Source: Prevotella sp. (GTDB lineage: Bacteria; Bacteroidota; Bacteroidia; Bacteroidales; Bacteroidaceae). From it: DNA of 37,003 nucleotides. A program made the translations under genes and the position numbers. The DNA lies in NCBI GenBank assembly GCA_024695705.1, contig JAILHP010000032.1:1-37003 (forward strand), given 5' to 3'. Below the pieces are notes generated by a model. It did no database searches and was not told where the DNA came from. It saw only the letters and a program-made list of their open reading frames with translations. This document shows, one piece after another, positions 4,881 through 37,003 of the stretch (positions are counted from its first letter, which is position 1; each line of letters begins with the position of its first letter).

Positions 4881-4929
4881 CACTCATCAACCACCACTCA
4901 CCATTCATCAACTACCACTTACCATTCAT
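4881..4929. repeat. Heptamer tract (7 units) at the 3' end of dusB
   Basis: CACTCAT CAACCAC CACTCAC CATTCAT CAACTAC CACTTAC CATTCAT; the dusB stop lies inside it. Confidence 0.9.
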
Positions 4930-5880
4930 CAAAATTTCCTTCGCCTTGTCAATGATGCTGAGGAGTTCCTCCACTTTGGTGGCCCGCAACATGTCAATAC
5001 GTGTCTGCCGGAAGTTGGGAATACCTTTGAAGACCGGACTGGCTGCCAAGTGACGACGGGTGTGCAGGATGCCGCGGTATTCGTCGATGCGCTCCACGTT
5101 GATGCGCAGCTGCTCCTTCAGCACGTTGATCTTTTCGTCTAATGACAGCTCCCTGCGAGAGAAGATCCACGGACACCCGAAAGTGGCACGGCCAATCATG
5201 ACGCCATCCACACCATACTGCTCAAAGGCAGCGTCAGCCTCTGCCAGCGAATGGATATCGCCGTTACCGATGATGGGGATACGGATGCGTGGATTACGCT
5301 TCACCTCGCCGATAAGCGTCCAGTCGGCCTCTCCCGTGTACATCTGTGCCCGGGTACGGCCATGAATGGTCAGTGTCTGGATGCCGCAGTCCTGCAACTG
5401 TTCGGCCAGGTCGGTGATGATGAGCTGCTCATTGTTCCAGCCCAGACGGGTCTTGACGGTGACAGGCACGCGGACAGCCTTTACCACCTCGCGTGTTATC
5501 TCCAGCAGCAGCGGGATATTTTGTAACATACCGGCACCTGCACCCTTGCTGGCCACCTTCTTCACAGGACAGCCGAAGTTCAGGTCTATGACGTCAGGAC
5601 GGGCCTCCTCCACGATGCGGGCAGCTTCAACCATCGCCTCCACGTCACGTCCGTAGATCTGAATACCCACGGGACGCTCTTCGTCGCTGATGGTCAGCTT
5701 CTTCACGGTGCTGTTGACGTTGCGCACCAGCGCCTCGGCCGACACAAACTCCGTATAGACCATCGCTGCACCATAACGCTTACACAACAATCGGAACCCG
5801 ATGTCGGTAACGTCCTCCATCGGTGCCAACAGCAACGGTCTTTCGCCTAAGTCTATTCCACCTATACCCCCAATCCTCAC
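4912..5880 (-). CDS. dusB: tRNA-dihydrouridine synthase (DusB-like)
   Basis: LLLAPMEDVTDIGFRLLCKRYGAAMVYTEF, DLNFGCPVKKVASKGAGAGML, TIHGRTRAQMYTGEADW, GNGDI, DGVMIGRATFGCPWIF. Confidence 0.92.
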   Translation of the reverse strand: MRIGGIGGIDLGERPLLLAPMEDVTDIGFRLLCKRYGAAMVYTEFVSAEALVRNVNSTVKKLTISDEERPVGIQIYGRDVEAMVEAARIVEEARPDVIDLNFGCPVKKVASKGAGAGMLQNIPLLLEITREVVKAVRVPVTVKTRLGWNNEQLIITDLAEQLQDCGIQTLTIHGRTRAQMYTGEADWTLIGEVKRNPRIRIPIIGNGDIHSLAEADAAFEQYGVDGVMIGRATFGCPWIFSRRELSLDEKINVLKEQLRINVERIDEYRGILHTRRHLAASPVFKGIPNFRQTRIDMLRATKVEELLSIIDKAKEILMNGKW

Positions 5881-8075: not shown

Positions 8076-8251
8076 CAAAGGTACGAATAAGCGAGAAGAA
8101 AACCAAAAGTATTTTGGATTTTCTTGAGCGAGAGTACCTTCGATGAAGTCAAAGGTAGTAATAATTCATCATTCATAATTCATAATTTTTAAGGCGGCAG
8201 CAAATTTTTCACTTTTCACTCTTCACTTTTCACTTAAAATGATTACCTTTG
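8076..8251. repeat. Composite divergent-promoter repeat, copy A
   Basis: CAAAGGTACGAATAAGCGAGAAGAAAACCAAAAGTATTTTGGATTTTCTTGAGCGAGAGTACCTTCG...TCAAAGGTAGTAA...GGCGGCAGCAAATTTTTCACTTTTCACTCTTCACTTTTCACTTAAAATGATTACCTTTG; near-identical to 14263-14450 and to the reverse complement of 24669-24866. Confidence 0.85.
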
Positions 8252-9563: not shown

Positions 9564-10196
9564 CTACAAATAGAAAATTGCTTCTGGCCCCATACAGAAG
9601 AGCAAATCAAGAATACTGAGGTTGGGCTGGAAGCCGAATTTGTGCGCAAAAACCTGATAGTAGGGCTTTGTAGAGTGTAGAGTGTAGAGTGTAGAGTCTG
9701 CTACCGCGATACCTTTTGCAGAGACATCATGGGCGGTAGCAAACTCTACACTTTTCATTCTAAACTTTTCACTATGTAAGACGTGGGGATGGATGTCAAG
9801 GAGTTCACATATCTTCTGCATGATTTCGAAGTTGAAATCGTAGAGGAATTCATAGTCTTGCTCGAAGAATGGACGGAGGTCGTCCGCGTAAAACTCAAAG
9901 AAGGGGCTTTCGCTGTAGGCCGACTGCAAGGCGTTCCAGTGGACGCGGCGCCACGAGCCGTGGTTGCTGATGCGGACGTCGCGGATTAGGCGGCTACCCC
10001 CGTGCTCAATGGGAACGGTAAGGGCCTGCTGACCATTGGCGGTGGCAATGATGCAACGGTTTCGGTAGGTCTGCTTGATGAACGACTCGCAGGCCTCCAG
10101 ATAGACAACATCTGCACGGTTCAGCTGCTGATACCACTCAACAGGGCCGAAGTAGGTAGTGGTAAGAAGGGTCTCACCCCCTTTGTCCTTCATCAT
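9564..10196 (-). CDS. WbqC family protein
   Basis: TTYFGPVEWYQQLNRADVVYLEACESFIKQTYRNRC...TKPYYQVFAHKFGFQPNLSILDLLFCMGPEA; carries a repeat-derived insert before KPYYQVF. Confidence 0.88.
   Translation of the reverse strand: MMKDKGGETLLTTTYFGPVEWYQQLNRADVVYLEACESFIKQTYRNRCIIATANGQQALTVPIEHGGSRLIRDVRISNHGSWRRVHWNALQSAYSESPFFEFYADDLRPFFEQDYEFLYDFNFEIMQKICELLDIHPHVLHSEKFRMKSVEFATAHDVSAKGIAVADSTLYTLHSTKPYYQVFAHKFGFQPNLSILDLLFCMGPEAIFYL
9671..9698. repeat. Heptanucleotide tandem repeat (TAGAGTG x4, last unit TAGAGTC) inside the WbqC gene
   Basis: Sequence TAGAGTG TAGAGTG TAGAGTG TAGAGTC. Confidence 0.95.
9688..9752. repeat. Inverted repeat, 20-bp arms (19/20), inside the WbqC gene
   Basis: AGTGTAGAGTCTGCTACCGC (9688-9707) versus GCGGTAGCAAACTCTACACT (9733-9752), 25-nt spacer. 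Confidence 0.95.
9743..9777. repeat. Degenerate heptamer tract, second arm in WbqC
   Basis: ACTCTAC ACTTTTC ATTCTAA ACTTTTC ACTATGT. Confidence 0.8.
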
Positions 10197-10212
10197 TTAT
10201 CATTTATCATTA
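10192..10212. repeat. Heptamer tract at the signal peptidase/WbqC gene overlap
   Basis: ATCATTT ATCATTT ATCATTA; contains the stop of one gene and overlaps the start of the other. Confidence 0.85.
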
Positions 10213-10807
10213 GGCCACAGGGCGCCAGAAAGCGGTCTGAGCGCCAGCCTTCCCAAAGGGGTTGTTCAGGGTCATGACTATATATAATAAGGTACGCGCG
10301 ACCGATGATGTGGTCTTCGGGCACGAGAAGGGAGGCTCCACCTGATCTCCCCGAAAGGGGAGGGATTCCGACGGGTTCCATGAGGTAGTAGTCCTTGTCG
10401 GCACAGGAATAGCGGCCGGGAACTAATTGGTTTGTGGTGAGTGGTGAGTGTTGAGAGGAGGAAGTGACCGTGTCACCAGGCACTGCCTTGCAGCACAGCA
10501 ACAGCACACGACGGTCGCTGATGTCGTCCTGCAGACTATCGGCAGGGTCGTTGACGGCTACAATGTCTCCCCGTTCTACGGGTTGCCGCCACAAGCGGTT
10601 ATAATGCAGAAAGCGATTGCCACCTACACGCAGGCCATAGCTCCATCGGTTGACCAGCACACGGTCGCCAGCCAGGAAGAAAGGCTCCATGGCGTTGCCC
10701 TCAATACAGCAAACAGTCGCCACTGCTGCCCTGAACAGAAACACGGCAACAATGGCGACAGCCAGTGTGATGAGGGTTTTTAGCAGTTGGCTTTTAGCTT
10801 TGGACAT
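10193..10807 (-). CDS. S26 family signal peptidase (short paralogue)
   Basis: CCIEGNAMEPFFLAGDRVLVNRWSYG, RGDIVAVNDPAD, VPEDHIIGRAYLI; next to a second lepB. Confidence 0.85.
   Translation of the reverse strand: MSKAKSQLLKTLITLAVAIVAVFLFRAAVATVCCIEGNAMEPFFLAGDRVLVNRWSYGLRVGGNRFLHYNRLWRQPVERGDIVAVNDPADSLQDDISDRRVLLLCCKAVPGDTVTSSSQHSPLTTNQLVPGRYSCADKDYYLMEPVGIPPLSGRSGGASLLVPEDHIIGRAYLIIYSHDPEQPLWEGWRSDRFLAPCGLMINDK
10435..10455. repeat. Heptamer tract inside the short signal peptidase gene
   Basis: TGGTGAG TGGTGAG TGTTGAG. Confidence 0.8.
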
Positions 10808-12249: not shown

Positions 12250-12981
12250 CTAAAACTTAAACATATCGGAAATCGTTAATAATCCCTGATGCTTGGCCGT
12301 ATATTCGGCAGCAAGCACGGCACCAAGGGCAAACCCCTTACGTGAGTGGGCATCGTGAGTGATGGTGATGATGTCAGCGTCTGAGTCGTAGCGCACGGTA
12401 TGAATGCCAGCAACTTCGCCTCGACGGATGTGGTCAACCCTTAAGAGTTTGGGATCTGTGGTTTCTTCTGCCCATGCCTCCTTGCGGTCGATACGCTCCA
12501 CTATCTCCTCCGCCAGCGTGATGGCTGTACCACTGGGATGGTCAAGTTTATGCACATGGTGCGTCTCTTCCATCTCCACGTCGTACTGCGGAAACTCGTT
12601 CATGATCTTGGCCAGGTAACGGTTGACGGCCGAGAAGATGGCCACGCCGATTGAGAAGTTAGAGGCCCAGAAGAGGGTGGAGGGTTGAGGGTGGAGGGTA
12701 GAGGGCGTGCATGCCTGGCGCACGTCGTCGCCATGTTCCTTCATCCAGCCCGTCGAGCCGCTTACCACCTTCACGCTCTTGGCCCACGCCTTGAGATAGT
12801 TGCCGTAGGCGGCCTGCGGAGCGGTGAACTCAATGGCGACATCGGCCGAGGCAAACTCTGGTGAGTCAAAGTCCTGCTGGTTGTCAATGTCTATGATACT
12901 TACAATCTCATGGCCACGGTCGCGGGCAATCTGCTCAATCATCTTGCCCATCTTACCGTAGCCGATTAATGCTATCTTCAT
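12250..12981 (-). CDS. dapB: 4-hydroxy-tetrahydrodipicolinate reductase
   Basis: MKIALIGYGKMGKMIEQIARDRGHEIV, SGSTGW, WASNFSIGVAIFSAVNRYLAKIMNEFPQYDVEMEETHHVHKLDHPSGTAITLAEEI; start set at MKIALIG. Confidence 0.95.
   Translation of the reverse strand: MKIALIGYGKMGKMIEQIARDRGHEIVSIIDIDNQQDFDSPEFASADVAIEFTAPQAAYGNYLKAWAKSVKVVSGSTGWMKEHGDDVRQACTPSTLHPQPSTLFWASNFSIGVAIFSAVNRYLAKIMNEFPQYDVEMEETHHVHKLDHPSGTAITLAEEIVERIDRKEAWAEETTDPKLLRVDHIRRGEVAGIHTVRYDSDADIITITHDAHSRKGFALGAVLAAEYTAKHQGLLTISDMFKF
12673..12705. repeat. Heptamer tract (GAGGGTN x4 plus GAGGG) inside dapB
   Basis: GAGGGTG GAGGGTT GAGGGTG GAGGGTA GAGGG; encodes the STLHPQPSTL segment. Confidence 0.9.
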
Positions 12982-14262: not shown

Positions 14263-14450
14263 CAAAGGTACGAATAAGCAAGTAGAAAACCAAAAGAATT
14301 TTGGATTTTCTCAAGCGAGAGTACCTTCAACCGTCAGGTCAAAGGTAGTAAAAATACATAATTCATAATTCATAATTCATATTTTTTTATGGGCGGCAGC
14401 AAATTCTTCACTTTTCACTCTTCACTTTTCACTTAAAATGATTACCTTTG
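14263..14450. repeat. Composite divergent-promoter repeat, copy B
   Basis: CAAAGGTACGAATAAGCAAGTAGAAAACCAAAAGAATTTTGGATTTTCTCAAGCGAGAGTACCTTC...GTCAAAGGTAGTAA...GGGCGGCAGCAAATTCTTCACTTTTCACTCTTCACTTTTCACTTAAAATGATTACCTTTG. Confidence 0.85.
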
Positions 14451-18983: not shown

Positions 18984-20807
18984 ATGAAGACATTTGAAGA
19001 ACTGGGCGTGTGCGAGGAGATTCGCCGCGCCATTGAGGAGCTGGGATTCACACAGCCCATGCCCGTACAGGAAGAAGTGATTCCCTACTTGTTAGGTAGT
19101 CGGAACGACGTGATTGCCCTGGCCCAGACGGGTACGGGCAAGACGGCAGCATTCGGCATTCCCGTGCTGCAGCGCATTGACCCCGTGCGCAGGGAGACGC
19201 AGGCGGTGATCCTTTCCCCCACCCGTGAACTCTGCCTGCAGATTACCGACGACCTCAGGGACTTCTCCAAGTACATGAAGGGCATTCACATTGAGGCGGT
19301 ATATGGCGGTGCCAGCATAGGACAGCAGATACGTGCCCTGAAAAACGGTGCCCACATCATCGTGGCAACACCCGGCCGACTGATTGACCTGATGAACCGT
19401 GGAGTGGCGAAGCTCGACGAGGCCTATAACGTGGTGCTCGATGAGGCTGACGAGATGCTGAACATGGGATTCTCGGAAAGCATCGACGCCATACTGGAGC
19501 AGATTCCCGAAGACCGTAACACGCTGCTGTTCTCGGCAACGATGAGCCGTGAGATAGAACGCATTGCCAAGGGCTACCTGCATGACCACAAGGAGATTGT
19601 GGTGGGCTCACGTAATGAGGGCGCGGAGAACGTGAACCACATCTATTACATGGTGAACGCCAAGGACAAGTATCTGGCCCTGAAGCGCATTGTGGATTAC
19701 TACCCACGCATCTTTGCCATCATCTTCTGTCGCACGAAGGTGGAGACGCAGGAGATTGCCGACAAGCTCATCAAGGACGGTTACAACGCCGAGTCGCTGC
19801 ACGGCGACCTGAGCCAGCAGCAGCGAGACCTGACTATGCAGAAATTCCGCCAGCACACCGTGCAGCTGCTGGTGGCCACGGACGTGGCAGCACGCGGACT
19901 GGATGTGGACGACCTGACGCATGTGGTCAACTTCGGACTGCCTGACGACATTGAAAACTACACGCACCGCAGCGGACGTACAGGACGTGCCGGCAAGAAG
20001 GGAACGAGCATCAGCATCATCAACCTTCGTGAGAAGTTCAAGATCCGTAACATTGAAAAGGAGATTGGCAAGGAGTTTGTGGAGGGTAAAATGCCCACCG
20101 CTCAGGAAATCTGCCAGAAGCAGCTGTACAAAGTGATGGACCAGATAGTGAAGGCCGACGTCAATGACGATGAAATCGCGCCTTTCATGCAGGACATCAA
20201 CCGTTACTTCGAGTATGTGGAGAAAGAAGACCTCATCAAAAAGATTGTATCGCTGGAGTTTGGAAAGTTCCTGGCCTACTATGCCGATGCACCCGAGATT
20301 GAGGTGGTCAAGAAACAATCCTCCGGTGAGAAGAAGCAGGGAGCGGGCAATAAAAACAAAGGTGCCACCAAGCCTGAGAGCGGTTTCCGCCGCCTGTTCA
20401 TCAACCTGGGCAAGGCCGACGGCTTCTATCCGGGTGAGCTGATGCAGTTCCTGAACAGAAACGTAGAGGGATACGTGAGCGTCGGCCACATTGACCTGCT
20501 GACGAAGTTTGCCTACTTCGACGTGCTGGAGAAAGATGCCAAGCGCGTGATGAATGCCCTGAACGGACAGCGGTACAAGGGCCGTGAAGTACGTTGCAAC
20601 GATTCAAGTGACAAGAAGACAAGCGGCAAAAGACAAGCGACAAATGATAAGAGACAAGCGACAAATGACAAGAAAAAAGGGAAAAAAACAACAAAAAAGA
20701 AAGAAGACTGGAAAGAATTCCTAAATCCCAAATCAATGAAGCTAAAGGGTGAAATTCCCGATTTCACCGAAGAAGGATGGGCTCGTCGCCACCCCAAAAA
20801 GAAGTAA
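18984..20807 (+). CDS. DEAD/DEAH-box RNA helicase (DeaD/CsdA-like)
   Basis: GFTQPMPVQEEVIPYLL, ALAQTGTGKTAAFGIPVLQ, VLDEADEMLNMGF, LLFSATMS, THRSGRTGRAGKKG, DbpA-like RNA-binding region. Confidence 0.95.
   Translation: MKTFEELGVCEEIRRAIEELGFTQPMPVQEEVIPYLLGSRNDVIALAQTGTGKTAAFGIPVLQRIDPVRRETQAVILSPTRELCLQITDDLRDFSKYMKGIHIEAVYGGASIGQQIRALKNGAHIIVATPGRLIDLMNRGVAKLDEAYNVVLDEADEMLNMGFSESIDAILEQIPEDRNTLLFSATMSREIERIAKGYLHDHKEIVVGSRNEGAENVNHIYYMVNAKDKYLALKRIVDYYPRIFAIIFCRTKVETQEIADKLIKDGYNAESLHGDLSQQQRDLTMQKFRQHTVQLLVATDVAARGLDVDDLTHVVNFGLPDDIENYTHRSGRTGRAGKKGTSISIINLREKFKIRNIEKEIGKEFVEGKMPTAQEICQKQLYKVMDQIVKADVNDDEIAPFMQDINRYFEYVEKEDLIKKIVSLEFGKFLAYYADAPEIEVVKKQSSGEKKQGAGNKNKGATKPESGFRRLFINLGKADGFYPGELMQFLNRNVEGYVSVGHIDLLTKFAYFDVLEKDAKRVMNALNGQRYKGREVRCNDSSDKKTSGKRQATNDKRQATNDKKKGKKTTKKKEDWKEFLNPKSMKLKGEIPDFTEEGWARRHPKKK
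20617..20672. repeat. Heptamer tract (8 units) inside the DEAD-box helicase gene
   Basis: AGACAAG CGGCAAA AGACAAG CGACAAA TGATAAG AGACAAG CGACAAA TGACAAG; encodes the KRQATND x2 protein repeat. Confidence 0.92.
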
Positions 20808-24668: not shown

Positions 24669-24866
24669 CAAAGGTACGAATTTTTTGTGAAAAATGAAAA
24701 GTGAAAAGTGAATAATTTGCTGCAGCCCTACTAAAAAAGAAAAAACTCCTAAATCTTAACTCTTAAATCCTAACTTTTTATTACCTTTGATTTGATGGTC
24801 GAAGGTACTCTCGCGCGAGAAAATCCAAAAATCTTTTGGTTTTCTTCTCGCTTATTCGTACCTTTG
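24669..24866. repeat. Composite divergent-promoter repeat, copy C (inverted relative to A and B)
   Basis: Reverse complement reads CAAAGGTACGAATAAGCGAGAAGAAAACCAAAAGATTTTTGGATTTTCTCGCGCGAGAGTACCTTCGACCATCAAATCAAAGGTAATAA...GCAGCAAATTATTCACTTTTCACTTTTCATTTTTCAC...TACCTTTG. Confidence 0.85.
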
Positions 24867-27598: not shown

Positions 27599-29932
27599 AT
27601 GCAAAAGAATTTAGTCATTGTTGAGTCTCCTGCAAAGGCGAAGACGATAGAGAAGTTCTTGGGAAAGGACTTCAAGGTCATGTCAAGCTACGGACATATA
27701 CGCGACCTGAAGAAACGTGAGATGAGCGTGAACCGCGACACACTGGAACCTGAATATGAGATTCCCGAAGAAAAGCAGCGACTGGTTCGCGACTTAAAGG
27801 CAAATGCCAAGAAGGCCGAGAAGGTCTGGCTGGCAAGCGATGAAGACCGTGAGGGAGAAGCTATTGCGTGGCACCTGTGTGAGGTGCTGGGGCTGGACGA
27901 AGCCAAGACCAGCCGTATTGTGTTCCACGAAATTACCAAGTCGGCCATTCAAGAAGCCATCAGCAACCCGCGTCATGTAGATATGAATCTCGTGAATGCG
28001 CAGCAGGCGCGTCGCGTGCTCGACCGCATCGTAGGCTTCAACCTTTCCCCCGTGTTGTGGCGTAAGGTGAAGCCGGCACTGTCAGCCGGTCGTGTGCAGA
28101 GTGTTGCCGTCCGCCTCATTGTGGAGCGTGAACGTGAAATACAAGCTTTCAAGAGTGAGCCGTTCTACCATGTAAGTGCGGTATTCGCCGTGACGAATGC
28201 CGACGGTTCGCAGACCGAGGTTAAGGCACAGCTTGACCGTCGTCTGAAGACGCGTGAAGAAGTGGTGGCCCTGCTGGAAAGCCTGAAGGCACAAGAGGGA
28301 CAGCACGTGGTGACAGCAGTGACCAAGAAACCTGTCAAGCGTACGCCCGCACCTCCCTTTACCACTTCCACCCTGCAGCAGGAAGCCGCCCGCAAGCTGG
28401 GCTTTACGGTCAGTCAGACCATGATGGTAGCACAGCGCCTGTACGAAAGCGGACGCATTACCTACATGCGTACGGACTCCGTCAACCTCTCCAGCCTTTG
28501 TCTGGCAGCCAGCCGCGAGGAAATCAAGCGCCTCTATGGTGACAAGTATAGCAAGACACGTCAGTACCACACCAACAGTAAAGGAGCCCAGGAGGCTCAC
28601 GAAGCCATCCGTCCGACGTTTATGGACGCCACGGAGGTAGAGGGCACGGTACAGGAGAAGCGTCTGTATGAACTCATCTGGAAACGTACCATCGCCTCAC
28701 AGATGGCAGATGCGGAAATGGAGAAGACAACGGTAGAAATAGGCGATTTCATCGCACAAGGCGAGGTCATCACCTTTGACGGTTTCCTCAAGGTTTACCG
28801 TGAGTCACTGGACGATGAGGACAACGGACAGCAGTCTGCTGACAACGCCCAGCGCTCGGCAGACAACGGACAATGGTCAACGGAGAATGGCCATCTGCTG
28901 CCGCCGCTGAAGGTTGGTCAGGCCCTGGAGCGCCGTGAGGTATCAGCGACGGAGCGTTTCAGCCAGCCACCCCTGCGCTATACGGAAGCATCGCTGGTTA
29001 AGAAGCTCGAAGAGCTTGGCATTGGCCGTCCTTCTACCTACGCACCGACCATCTCCACCATCCAGCAGCGTGAATACGTGGAGAAGGGCGACAAGAAAGG
29101 TACGGAGCGCCAGTATTCCGTCTTTACACTGAAAGGTAAACAGGTAACAGAGAAGAATCGCAAGGAGATAACCGGCTCAGAGAAAGGTAAGCTGTTGCCT
29201 ACGGACATCGGTATCGTGGTCAACGACTTCCTCATGGAATACTTCCCCACCATCATGGACTACAACTTCACCGCCAAGGTGGAGCAAGACTTTGACAAGA
29301 TTGCCGAGGGCAAGGAGAAGTGGAACGAGATGATGGAACAGTTCTACAACGACTTCGAACCTACGGTAGAGCAGACGCTGAATGTCCGTCAGGACCATCG
29401 TGCCGGCGAGCGTCAGCTGGGCAACGACCCCAAGAGCGGCCGTCCCGTGTTTGTGAAGATAGGCCGTTTCGGTCCTGTGGTTCAGGTGGGTACTGCCGAG
29501 GATAAGGTTAAGCCGCTGTTTGCTCAGATTCCCAAGGAGAAGAGCATTGAGACCATCACGCTGGAGGAGGCCATGGAACTATTCCGCCTGCCGCGTGAGA
29601 TAGGCAGCTACGAGGGCAGCAAGGTCACCATCGGTGCCGGCCGCTTCGGTCCCTACGTGCTGCATAACGGCAAGTATGCTTCACTGCCGAAGGATGCCGA
29701 CCCCATGAGCTTCACGCTCGACGAGGCCATCGCCCTCATCCGCGAACGCCGCACCCAGGAGGCCCAGCGCCACCTCAAGCTGTTTGCCGAAGACGACAAG
29801 CTGGAGATTCTCAACGGCCGTTTCGGTCCCTACATTGCCTATGACGGCAAGAACTACCGCCTGCCTAAGAACATGCACGAGCGGGCTGCCGACCTCACCT
29901 ATGAGGAGTGCATGAAGATTGTGAACAAATAA
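27599..29932 (+). CDS. topA: DNA topoisomerase I
   Basis: MQKNLVIVESPAKAKTIEKFLGKDFKVMSSYGHIRDL, DEDREGEAIAWHL, RRVLDRIVGFNLSPVLWRKVKPALSAGRVQSVAVRLIV, YMRTDS, LGIGRPSTYAPTI. Confidence 0.97.
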   Translation: MQKNLVIVESPAKAKTIEKFLGKDFKVMSSYGHIRDLKKREMSVNRDTLEPEYEIPEEKQRLVRDLKANAKKAEKVWLASDEDREGEAIAWHLCEVLGLDEAKTSRIVFHEITKSAIQEAISNPRHVDMNLVNAQQARRVLDRIVGFNLSPVLWRKVKPALSAGRVQSVAVRLIVEREREIQAFKSEPFYHVSAVFAVTNADGSQTEVKAQLDRRLKTREEVVALLESLKAQEGQHVVTAVTKKPVKRTPAPPFTTSTLQQEAARKLGFTVSQTMMVAQRLYESGRITYMRTDSVNLSSLCLAASREEIKRLYGDKYSKTRQYHTNSKGAQEAHEAIRPTFMDATEVEGTVQEKRLYELIWKRTIASQMADAEMEKTTVEIGDFIAQGEVITFDGFLKVYRESLDDEDNGQQSADNAQRSADNGQWSTENGHLLPPLKVGQALERREVSATERFSQPPLRYTEASLVKKLEELGIGRPSTYAPTISTIQQREYVEKGDKKGTERQYSVFTLKGKQVTEKNRKEITGSEKGKLLPTDIGIVVNDFLMEYFPTIMDYNFTAKVEQDFDKIAEGKEKWNEMMEQFYNDFEPTVEQTLNVRQDHRAGERQLGNDPKSGRPVFVKIGRFGPVVQVGTAEDKVKPLFAQIPKEKSIETITLEEAMELFRLPREIGSYEGSKVTIGAGRFGPYVLHNGKYASLPKDADPMSFTLDEAIALIRERRTQEAQRHLKLFAEDDKLEILNGRFGPYIAYDGKNYRLPKNMHERAADLTYEECMKIVNK
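28820..28889. repeat. Heptamer tract (10 units) inside topA
   Basis: GACAACG GACAGCA GTCTGCT GACAACG CCCAGCG CTCGGCA GACAACG GACAATG GTCAACG GAGAATG; protein repeat DNGQQSA/DNAQRSA/DNGQWST. Confidence 0.92.
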
Positions 29933-35505: not shown

Positions 35506-35577
35506 AATAGATCCTTTAAATGGATTAGATAGTTTAGGTAATTACCAATAATTATTACTATTTTTTTATTGTATAGC

Positions 35578-35605
35578 GGTTATTGGTTATTGTTTAAAGG
35601 TTATT
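35578..35605. repeat. Heptamer tract abutting the ugd start codon
   Basis: GGTTATT GGTTATT GTTTAAA GGTTATT, then GTATATC-ATG. Confidence 0.85.
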
Positions 35606-35612
35606 GTATATC

Positions 35613-37003
35613 ATGCGTGACTTCAAAGACATAAAAATCGCTGTGGCAGGCACTGGTTATGTAGGCCTGTCAATTGCTACCTTATTATCACAGCACCACC
35701 AGGTGACGGCAGTGGATGTCATCCCTGAGAAGGTGGATATGCTGAACAAGAAACAGTCGCCCATCCAGGACGAGTATATTGAGAAATACCTTCGGGAGAA
35801 AGATCTGCATCTTACGGCGACCCTCGATGGTGCCGCTGCCTATCAGGATGCTGACTATGTAATTATCGCTGCTCCCACGAACTATGACCCTGTAAAGAAC
35901 TTCTTCGATACCCATCATATCGAGGATGTCATAGACTTGGTAATCAGTGTAAACCCCGATGCAGTGATGGTCATCAAGAGTACCATTCCTGTGGGCTACT
36001 GCCGTAACCTCTATGTACGCTATGCCCTGAAGTTCGCCTCGACACCAGAGCTGAAGGACAAGAAGTTCAACCTGCTGTTCTCTCCGGAGTTTCTGCGTGA
36101 GAGTAAGGCCCTCTATGACAACCTTTATCCCAGTCGCATCATTGTGGGTTATCCCAAAAAGATTGATAACCCGGAATTCGCTGAGGAGAATGCTGCCATC
36201 CAGGCTTTCGGAAATCCTGAAGCAGAACAATACGCCCATACCTTCGCTGATCTCCTCCTAGAAGGTGCCATCGGCCCCCAAGGAAGCGAAGACAAAACAA
36301 GTGCGGAAGCAAATTCTTCATTCTTCACTCTTCATTCTTCATTAAAGAAAGGCATTCCTGTTCTCTTCATGGGTCTGAAGGAGGCCGAGGCTGTCAAGCT
36401 CTTTGCGAATACCTATCTGGCACTGCGTGTGAGCTATTTCAATGAGCTGGACACCTATAGTGAGGTAAAGGGTTTGGATACGAAGAGTATCATTCGTGGC
36501 GTAAGCCTCGATCCTCGTGTAGGAGATTACTATAACAACCCTAGCTTCGGTTATGGCGGCTACTGTCTGCCGAAAGATACGAAGCAGCTACTGGCTAACT
36601 ATAGCCACGTGCCCCAGAACATGATGACGGCCATCGTGGAGAGTAATCGTACGCGTAAGGACTTCATTGCGGATCAGGTGCTACGCAAAGCTGGTTATTA
36701 TGACTATACCTCACACAACCAATATGCAGCAGAGGAGAAAGAAGTGACGATAGGCATCTATCGTCTGACGATGAAGAGTAACTCTGATAATTTCCGTCAG
36801 TCGAGTATCCAGGGTGTGATGAAGCGTATCAAGGCGAAGGGGGCACGTCTCATCATCTTCGAACCTACCTTGAAAGAGGGTACGACATTCTTCGGCAGTC
36901 TGGTGGTTAACGACTTAGAGAAGTTCAAGTCACAGAGTGATGCCATCATCGCCAACCGTTATGATGCCTGTCTCTCTGACGTTGAAGACAAGGTATATAC
37001 CCG
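35613..37003 (+). CDS. ugd: UDP-glucose/nucleotide-sugar 6-dehydrogenase (truncated at window end)
   Basis: [117 protein letters not shown]. Not in the ORF track (no stop in window). Confidence 0.93.
36313..36340. repeat. Heptamer tract inside ugd
   Basis: ATTCTTC ATTCTTC ACTCTTC ATTCTTC ATTAAAG, preceded by GCGGAAGCAA. Confidence 0.9.

Follow-up and report, generated by a model that had tools for sequence, protein, structure and literature searches.

The palindromic element and its WbqC host gene

The window analysed here, a stretch of 37,003 nucleotides from a Prevotella sp. contig (JAILHP010000032.1), contains a gene of the WbqC family that hosts a palindromic element made of two inverted arms and a short loop, together with four single arms of the same element family (Table 1). 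The original prediction had placed the element inside a WbqC-family gene and had described a 19/20 inverted repeat at 9688-9707 and 9733-9752; the gene family was confirmed, and the repeat is present exactly there. Its presence is far above chance: scored with a matrix derived from family members, the two arms reach 47.2 and 60.6, compared with a best value of -27 in two shuffled 20-kb sequences.

Table 1. Coordinates of the palindromic element, its host gene and the single arms in the window.
Feature	Position	Strand	Matrix score	Description
WbqC-family gene hosting the element	9564-10196	-		ORF; PF08889, E = 3.7e-40
Whole palindromic element	9667-9773	.		107 bp (41 + 25 + 41); arm-matrix matches at 9667 and 9733; family boundary 30 nt beyond the core
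Left arm	9667-9707	+	47.2	Four TGTAGAG-type heptamers, then core TCTGCTACCGC (one change from TTTGCTACCGC)
Loop	9708-9732	.		25 nt (= 1 mod 3); minus strand encodes part of AHDVSAKGI
Right arm	9733-9773	-	60.6	Core GCGGTAGCAAA, then heptamers CTCTACA CTTTTCA TTCTAAA CTTTTCA
Single arm of the family	8194-8234	-	64.7	Between divergent TAnnTTTG-type promoters; ATAATTC heptamer tract 8161-8187 opposite
Single arm of the family	14393-14433	-	65.4	AATTCAT heptamer tract 14353-14381 opposite
Diverged single arm of the family	24686-24726	+	44.2	Faces AACTCCT-type heptamers 24744-24775
Single arm of the family	36303-36343	-	56.0	

Each arm is 41 nt long and comprises four ARTKNAR heptamers, two further bases and the core TTTGCTRCCGC. 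The arms of the window element are 82% complementary over 39 nt, its left heptamer tract is a perfect repeat (TGTAGAG x4.1, 100% match), its RNA fold is far stronger than the folds of shuffled sequences on both strands (z = -8.3), and its 107 bp fall within the ~100-150 bp of Rickettsia palindromic elements (RPEs). Because conservation across the family stops abruptly 30 nt beyond the core, the ends of the element were fixed at 9667-9773, which corrects the limits of 9671-9777 given previously. Heptamer tracts had also been noted outside each repeat; they do exist, but as part of an arm fixed at four heptamers rather than as a free tract. In every class of copies the information content is near background just beyond position -30, the drop being steepest for copies inside genes.

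Within WbqC, the element lies in the linker preceding KPYYQVF, where four close orthologues (L035, L037, L038, L043) have a motif such as DFREVINAKHPQPDAEF, and the stretch between the flanking anchors measures 41 residues in the window protein as in those four. The motif DFREAIxPKHPxPDADF, found in nearly all WbqC orthologues, is absent from the window protein. With length unchanged and the native motif gone, the WbqC copy is a replacement rather than a clean insertion; the addition of ~35 residues originally put forward is therefore unsupported, and the alignment did not reveal the segment as a conserved domain of the orthologues. The element is probably translated together with the rest of WbqC, and the protein carrying it presumably still works. 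In other species (L036, L037, L039, L043, L047, L054, L080, L081) the same linker holds heptamer tracts of differing units, which gives it the appearance of a place where such sequences have landed more than once.

Dispersal, reading frame and host genes of the family

The inverted repeat is not unique to this locus, as the genome-wide search proposed for it revealed a dispersed family: 17 pattern matches were found in the genome of origin vs 1 for the reversed control, and a second version of the pattern gave 46 vs 4. Matches also occurred in 28 of 80 related genomes, all but one of these 28 belonging to the same genus. In total, 134 distinct doublets were collected, two of which (L173, L181) are unrelated chance matches devoid of heptamers, while the others share one structure. 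Among the matches listed when a single genome was scanned for each species, almost all fell in rumen Prevotella, Prevotellaceae and Bacteroidaceae assemblies, joined by two isolates of Fibrella and one of Prevotella communis (the chromosome of E15-14); matches in isolate genomes argue against an assembly artefact. The doublets of Fibrella, a distant relative (L117, L135, L161, L188, L203, L206), share the core and have arms that are close to perfect; five of the Fibrella copies show near-complete agreement between their arms over all 41 positions, including the variable heptamer positions. Direct repeats of 1-9 nt flanking the elements were not above expectation as target-site duplications, and an Rfam search gave no hit over thresholds: all that matched were models of microRNA hairpins, at values far short of the gathering scores.

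Loops with 85-100% identity recur amid unrelated flanks: in two copies inside a single MetH-like gene (L131), on a single contig (L189), and at loci in separate genomes (L072/L142; L201 and L003). Judged from the sequences, this is the appearance expected of copies of a mobile element.

The family keeps to the reading frame of its host genes. Loop length equals 1 mod 3 in 50 of the 52 copies lying in long ORFs vs 28 of the 82 others (Fisher p = 4e-14), and these 50 in-ORF copies maintain a single reading frame, FATA...AVANSTLYTLHST. In this frame the default arm contains one in-frame TAG; the T that creates it occupies the relevant heptamer position in 2 of 49 upstream arms vs 28 of 49 downstream arms, a comparison that is partly circular because lying within an ORF forbids a stop. 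When judged from the flanks only, ORF-flanked copies of the AG class were in frame in 30 cases and out of frame in six, three of the latter being from Fibrella, vs five in frame and 16 out for the AA class. Copies with AGTGTAG-type heptamers are mostly genic, those with AGTGAAA-type heptamers mostly intergenic. Removal of the segment by an intron-like process or by translational bypass was also considered and is unlikely, since the copies stay open in frame, which removal would not need.

From their translations and general knowledge of the families, we take the host genes to include those of DNA ligase A (LigA), UvrA, a ClpA-like protein, RecG, the exonuclease VII large subunit (XseA), ArgC, MetH and WbqC, the last at two sites; the LigA and ClpA identities were compared with solved structures. 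In LigA, the element is placed between TIRSIPLVL and PREFEIRGE, where the E. coli protein has two residues. The closest orthologues (<=93% identical) have no insert; in most of them a native linker, variable and 33-36 nt long, takes its place, and the element-filled gene is longer by 54 nt at the linker, so that roughly 40 nt of native linker are missing. Host sequence is thus missing at filled sites, which simple insertion does not account for, and it has been replaced, whether upon insertion or afterwards. The LigA linker of L213 has AGTCAGG-type inverted heptamers around a retained native DLFAA, i.e. native sequence at the loop position.

IVP genes enclosed by the family arms

IVP is a four-helix-bundle protein of 23S rRNA intervening sequences. 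In two pairs of family arms the two arms stand ~385-390 nt apart and enclose an ORF whose product matches PF05635 23S_rRNA_IVP (E = 7.5e-28 and 2.4e-22) and TIGR02436 (four helix bundle protein). Four further examples among the IVP genes of arm-rich genomes bring the matched full-length elements to six in all, 467-548 bp in length, with the gene filling the interior and enclosed by exactly the family arms (four heptamers and TTTGCTRCCGC). One of the IVP elements (L238) is located between protein-coding stretches.

Other IVP genes have different arms, in which some four 7- or 8-mers form an inverted array that has a core of its own, e.g. TATGATTAC; the arrays are of 8-mers rather than 7-mers at L258, L267, L275, L282 and others. 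Counting flanking inverted repeats at a score of at least 16, 61 of the 94 PF05635 genes examined lie between such repeats, mostly 7- or 8-mer arrays, compared with none of 201 random windows and one of 679 ORFs; by sample, the counts were 17/30 for order-wide loci, 7/14 for Fibrella and 8/30 for phylum-wide loci. Arm similarity tracks the similarity of the IVP proteins (Mantel r = 0.45, 0/999 permutations). IVPs matching the family arms occurred in five of 12 arm-rich genomes vs none of 36 others (p = 0.0005), with identities of 79-100% in clade b and 60-100% in clade a.

In the other seven arm-rich genomes no arm-matching IVP was found. The genome of origin (74% complete) has three IVP genes, all with other arms, and the complete chromosome of Prevotella communis E15-14 has doublets and no IVP gene with matching arms; likewise, none of the IVP genes detected in Fibrella carries the core of the Fibrella doublets. 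Unmatched doublets may be relics, may have been moved in trans, or may indicate that IVP is not the mover. The 22-nt loop resembles the L239 IVP element at its inner ends (CATACC / GGGACG), a match too short to count towards a derivation of short loops from the ends of IVP elements.

We know of no enzyme activity of IVP, and of no recognised transposase or nuclease activity. Its relatives include Avd, the accessory protein of diversity-generating retroelements (PMC10053308), and a solved structure (2rld). RNase III excises the intervening sequence of Coxiella in vitro; mobility of intervening sequences has been proposed only (PMC4990558).

Origin of the elements and relation to known repeats

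We regard it as likely that the window element is MITE-like: a member, short and non-autonomous, of a mobile palindromic family and a relative of the IVP-carrying element. The short form would derive from the long, IVP-bearing one, and IVP, alone or with host factors, would move the arms. Copies with short loops (12-40 nt) would disperse, and genic copies would persist if open in frame. In such copies the ribosome would, as we propose, read through and add a peptide of ~35 residues within a variable linker; the copy in the WbqC linker ahead of KPYYQVF has displaced the native motif.

The main competitor, to which we give a minor though real probability, sees here an in-frame palindrome of the RPE kind whose movement depends on the host or on some unknown mechanism, the IVP gene being a passenger between such arms. 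The in-frame copies of the genome of origin and the doublets of a complete isolate genome, both lacking a matching IVP, speak for it, as do the lack of an evident transposase family and the established precedent of RPEs (PMC10969869). Against it, the inverted 7- or 8-mer arms differ from one IVP clade to another, with the type of arm tracking the type of IVP, a pairing more consistent than one would expect of a passenger.

Growth of a heptamer microsatellite through slippage, followed by fold-back copying into a palindrome and with no mobile element involved, would fit the many heptamer unit types in the window and in linkers, as well as arms that can be identical down to their variable positions, as in Fibrella. 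It is nevertheless improbable, as the fixed length of four heptamers, the conserved 11-nt core, the sharp end and the dispersed loop families are unexpected from slippage, and the core recurs in a group as distant as Fibrella.

That the element is a REPIN or BIME, with a REP-associated Y1 transposase (RAYT) spreading it, is very improbable. The family resembles REPINs in its dispersed pairs of short inverted repeats separated by a variable loop, but it is often intragenic and in frame and shows no association with a Y1 transposase; such an association was rejected, PF01797 not having been found in the genome of origin, G023, G032, G035 or G020, genomes with 9 to 36 arms each (three of the assemblies being >5% incomplete). 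An invertible switch or regulatory hairpin acting on the WbqC mRNA, suggested by the strong RNA hairpin and by window single arms adjoining promoters, is equally improbable, given that the loop is open and in frame, that the same structure occurs mid-gene in many unrelated genes and that the promoter-region copies in the window have one arm only.

We class the window element as RPE-like in behaviour, MITE-like in structure and, most likely, a short-form relative of elements that carry IVP. The family shares with MITEs a short inverted-repeat form with ends common to a longer gene-bearing relative (the six IVP elements with the same arms), but it differs in having no target-site duplication (1-9 nt) and a candidate parent gene (PF05635 / TIGR02436) that is not a known transposase. 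With RPEs it has in common a palindromic structure of ~100-150 bp, occurrence in frame in many unrelated genes and a recurrent encoded peptide, whereas its phylum, its arms of four heptamers with a fixed core and its gene-bearing full-length form set it apart. The resemblance to RPEs originally noted can thus be upheld for a dispersed palindromic family lying in frame in unrelated genes, but kinship with RPEs is unsupported; the RPE-like reading holds as an analogy, because 50 of the 52 copies in long ORFs keep one frame, in diverse hosts. RPEs themselves are the precedent for in-frame palindromes (PMC10969869).

The full-length form resembles 23S rRNA intervening sequences, being an IVP gene between terminal inverted repeats, about 430-550 bp for the whole element; yet the Prevotella elements lie between or inside protein genes (WbqC for the window copy) instead of in rRNA, and they have heptamer arms and many short in-frame relatives. 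The STRR heptanucleotide repeats of cyanobacteria are similarly dispersed heptamer repeats, but the fixed four-heptamer arm, the core and the inverted pairing distinguish the Prevotella family from them. More tentatively, and with somewhat less than even confidence, IVP could be what moves a large class of Bacteroidota mobile elements, with each lineage recognising heptamer or octamer inverted arms of its own and short derivatives colonising intergenic regions and, in frame, linkers of housekeeping proteins; the classical 23S intervening sequences would then be its rRNA-resident branch.

The open-access literature searched, outside which most subscription papers lie, contained no account of such elements in Prevotella or of IVP genes between heptamer arms. 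Protein-coding palindromes have been described mainly from Rickettsia; the Prevotella family adds a second case that appears to be independent and for which there are candidates both for the parent element and for the mobility gene. The function of IVP and the movement of intervening sequences have been a question since the 1990s, and the matching arms make both directly testable.

Prevotella genomes abound in heptamer repeats, for which the family suggests one origin. In the window, the single arms at 8194, 14393 and 24686 have a different heptamer tract in the place of the second arm, as if the element were chimeric. Short heptamer runs are found at 10192-10211, in the overlap of the signal peptidase and WbqC genes, and at 10434-10455, inside the signal peptidase-like gene. 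More tracts with a period of 7, 14 or 21 and other units lie at 4884-4932, 12672-12705, 20605-20673, 28820-28890 and 35566-35606; such tracts may be what is left of other, similar elements.
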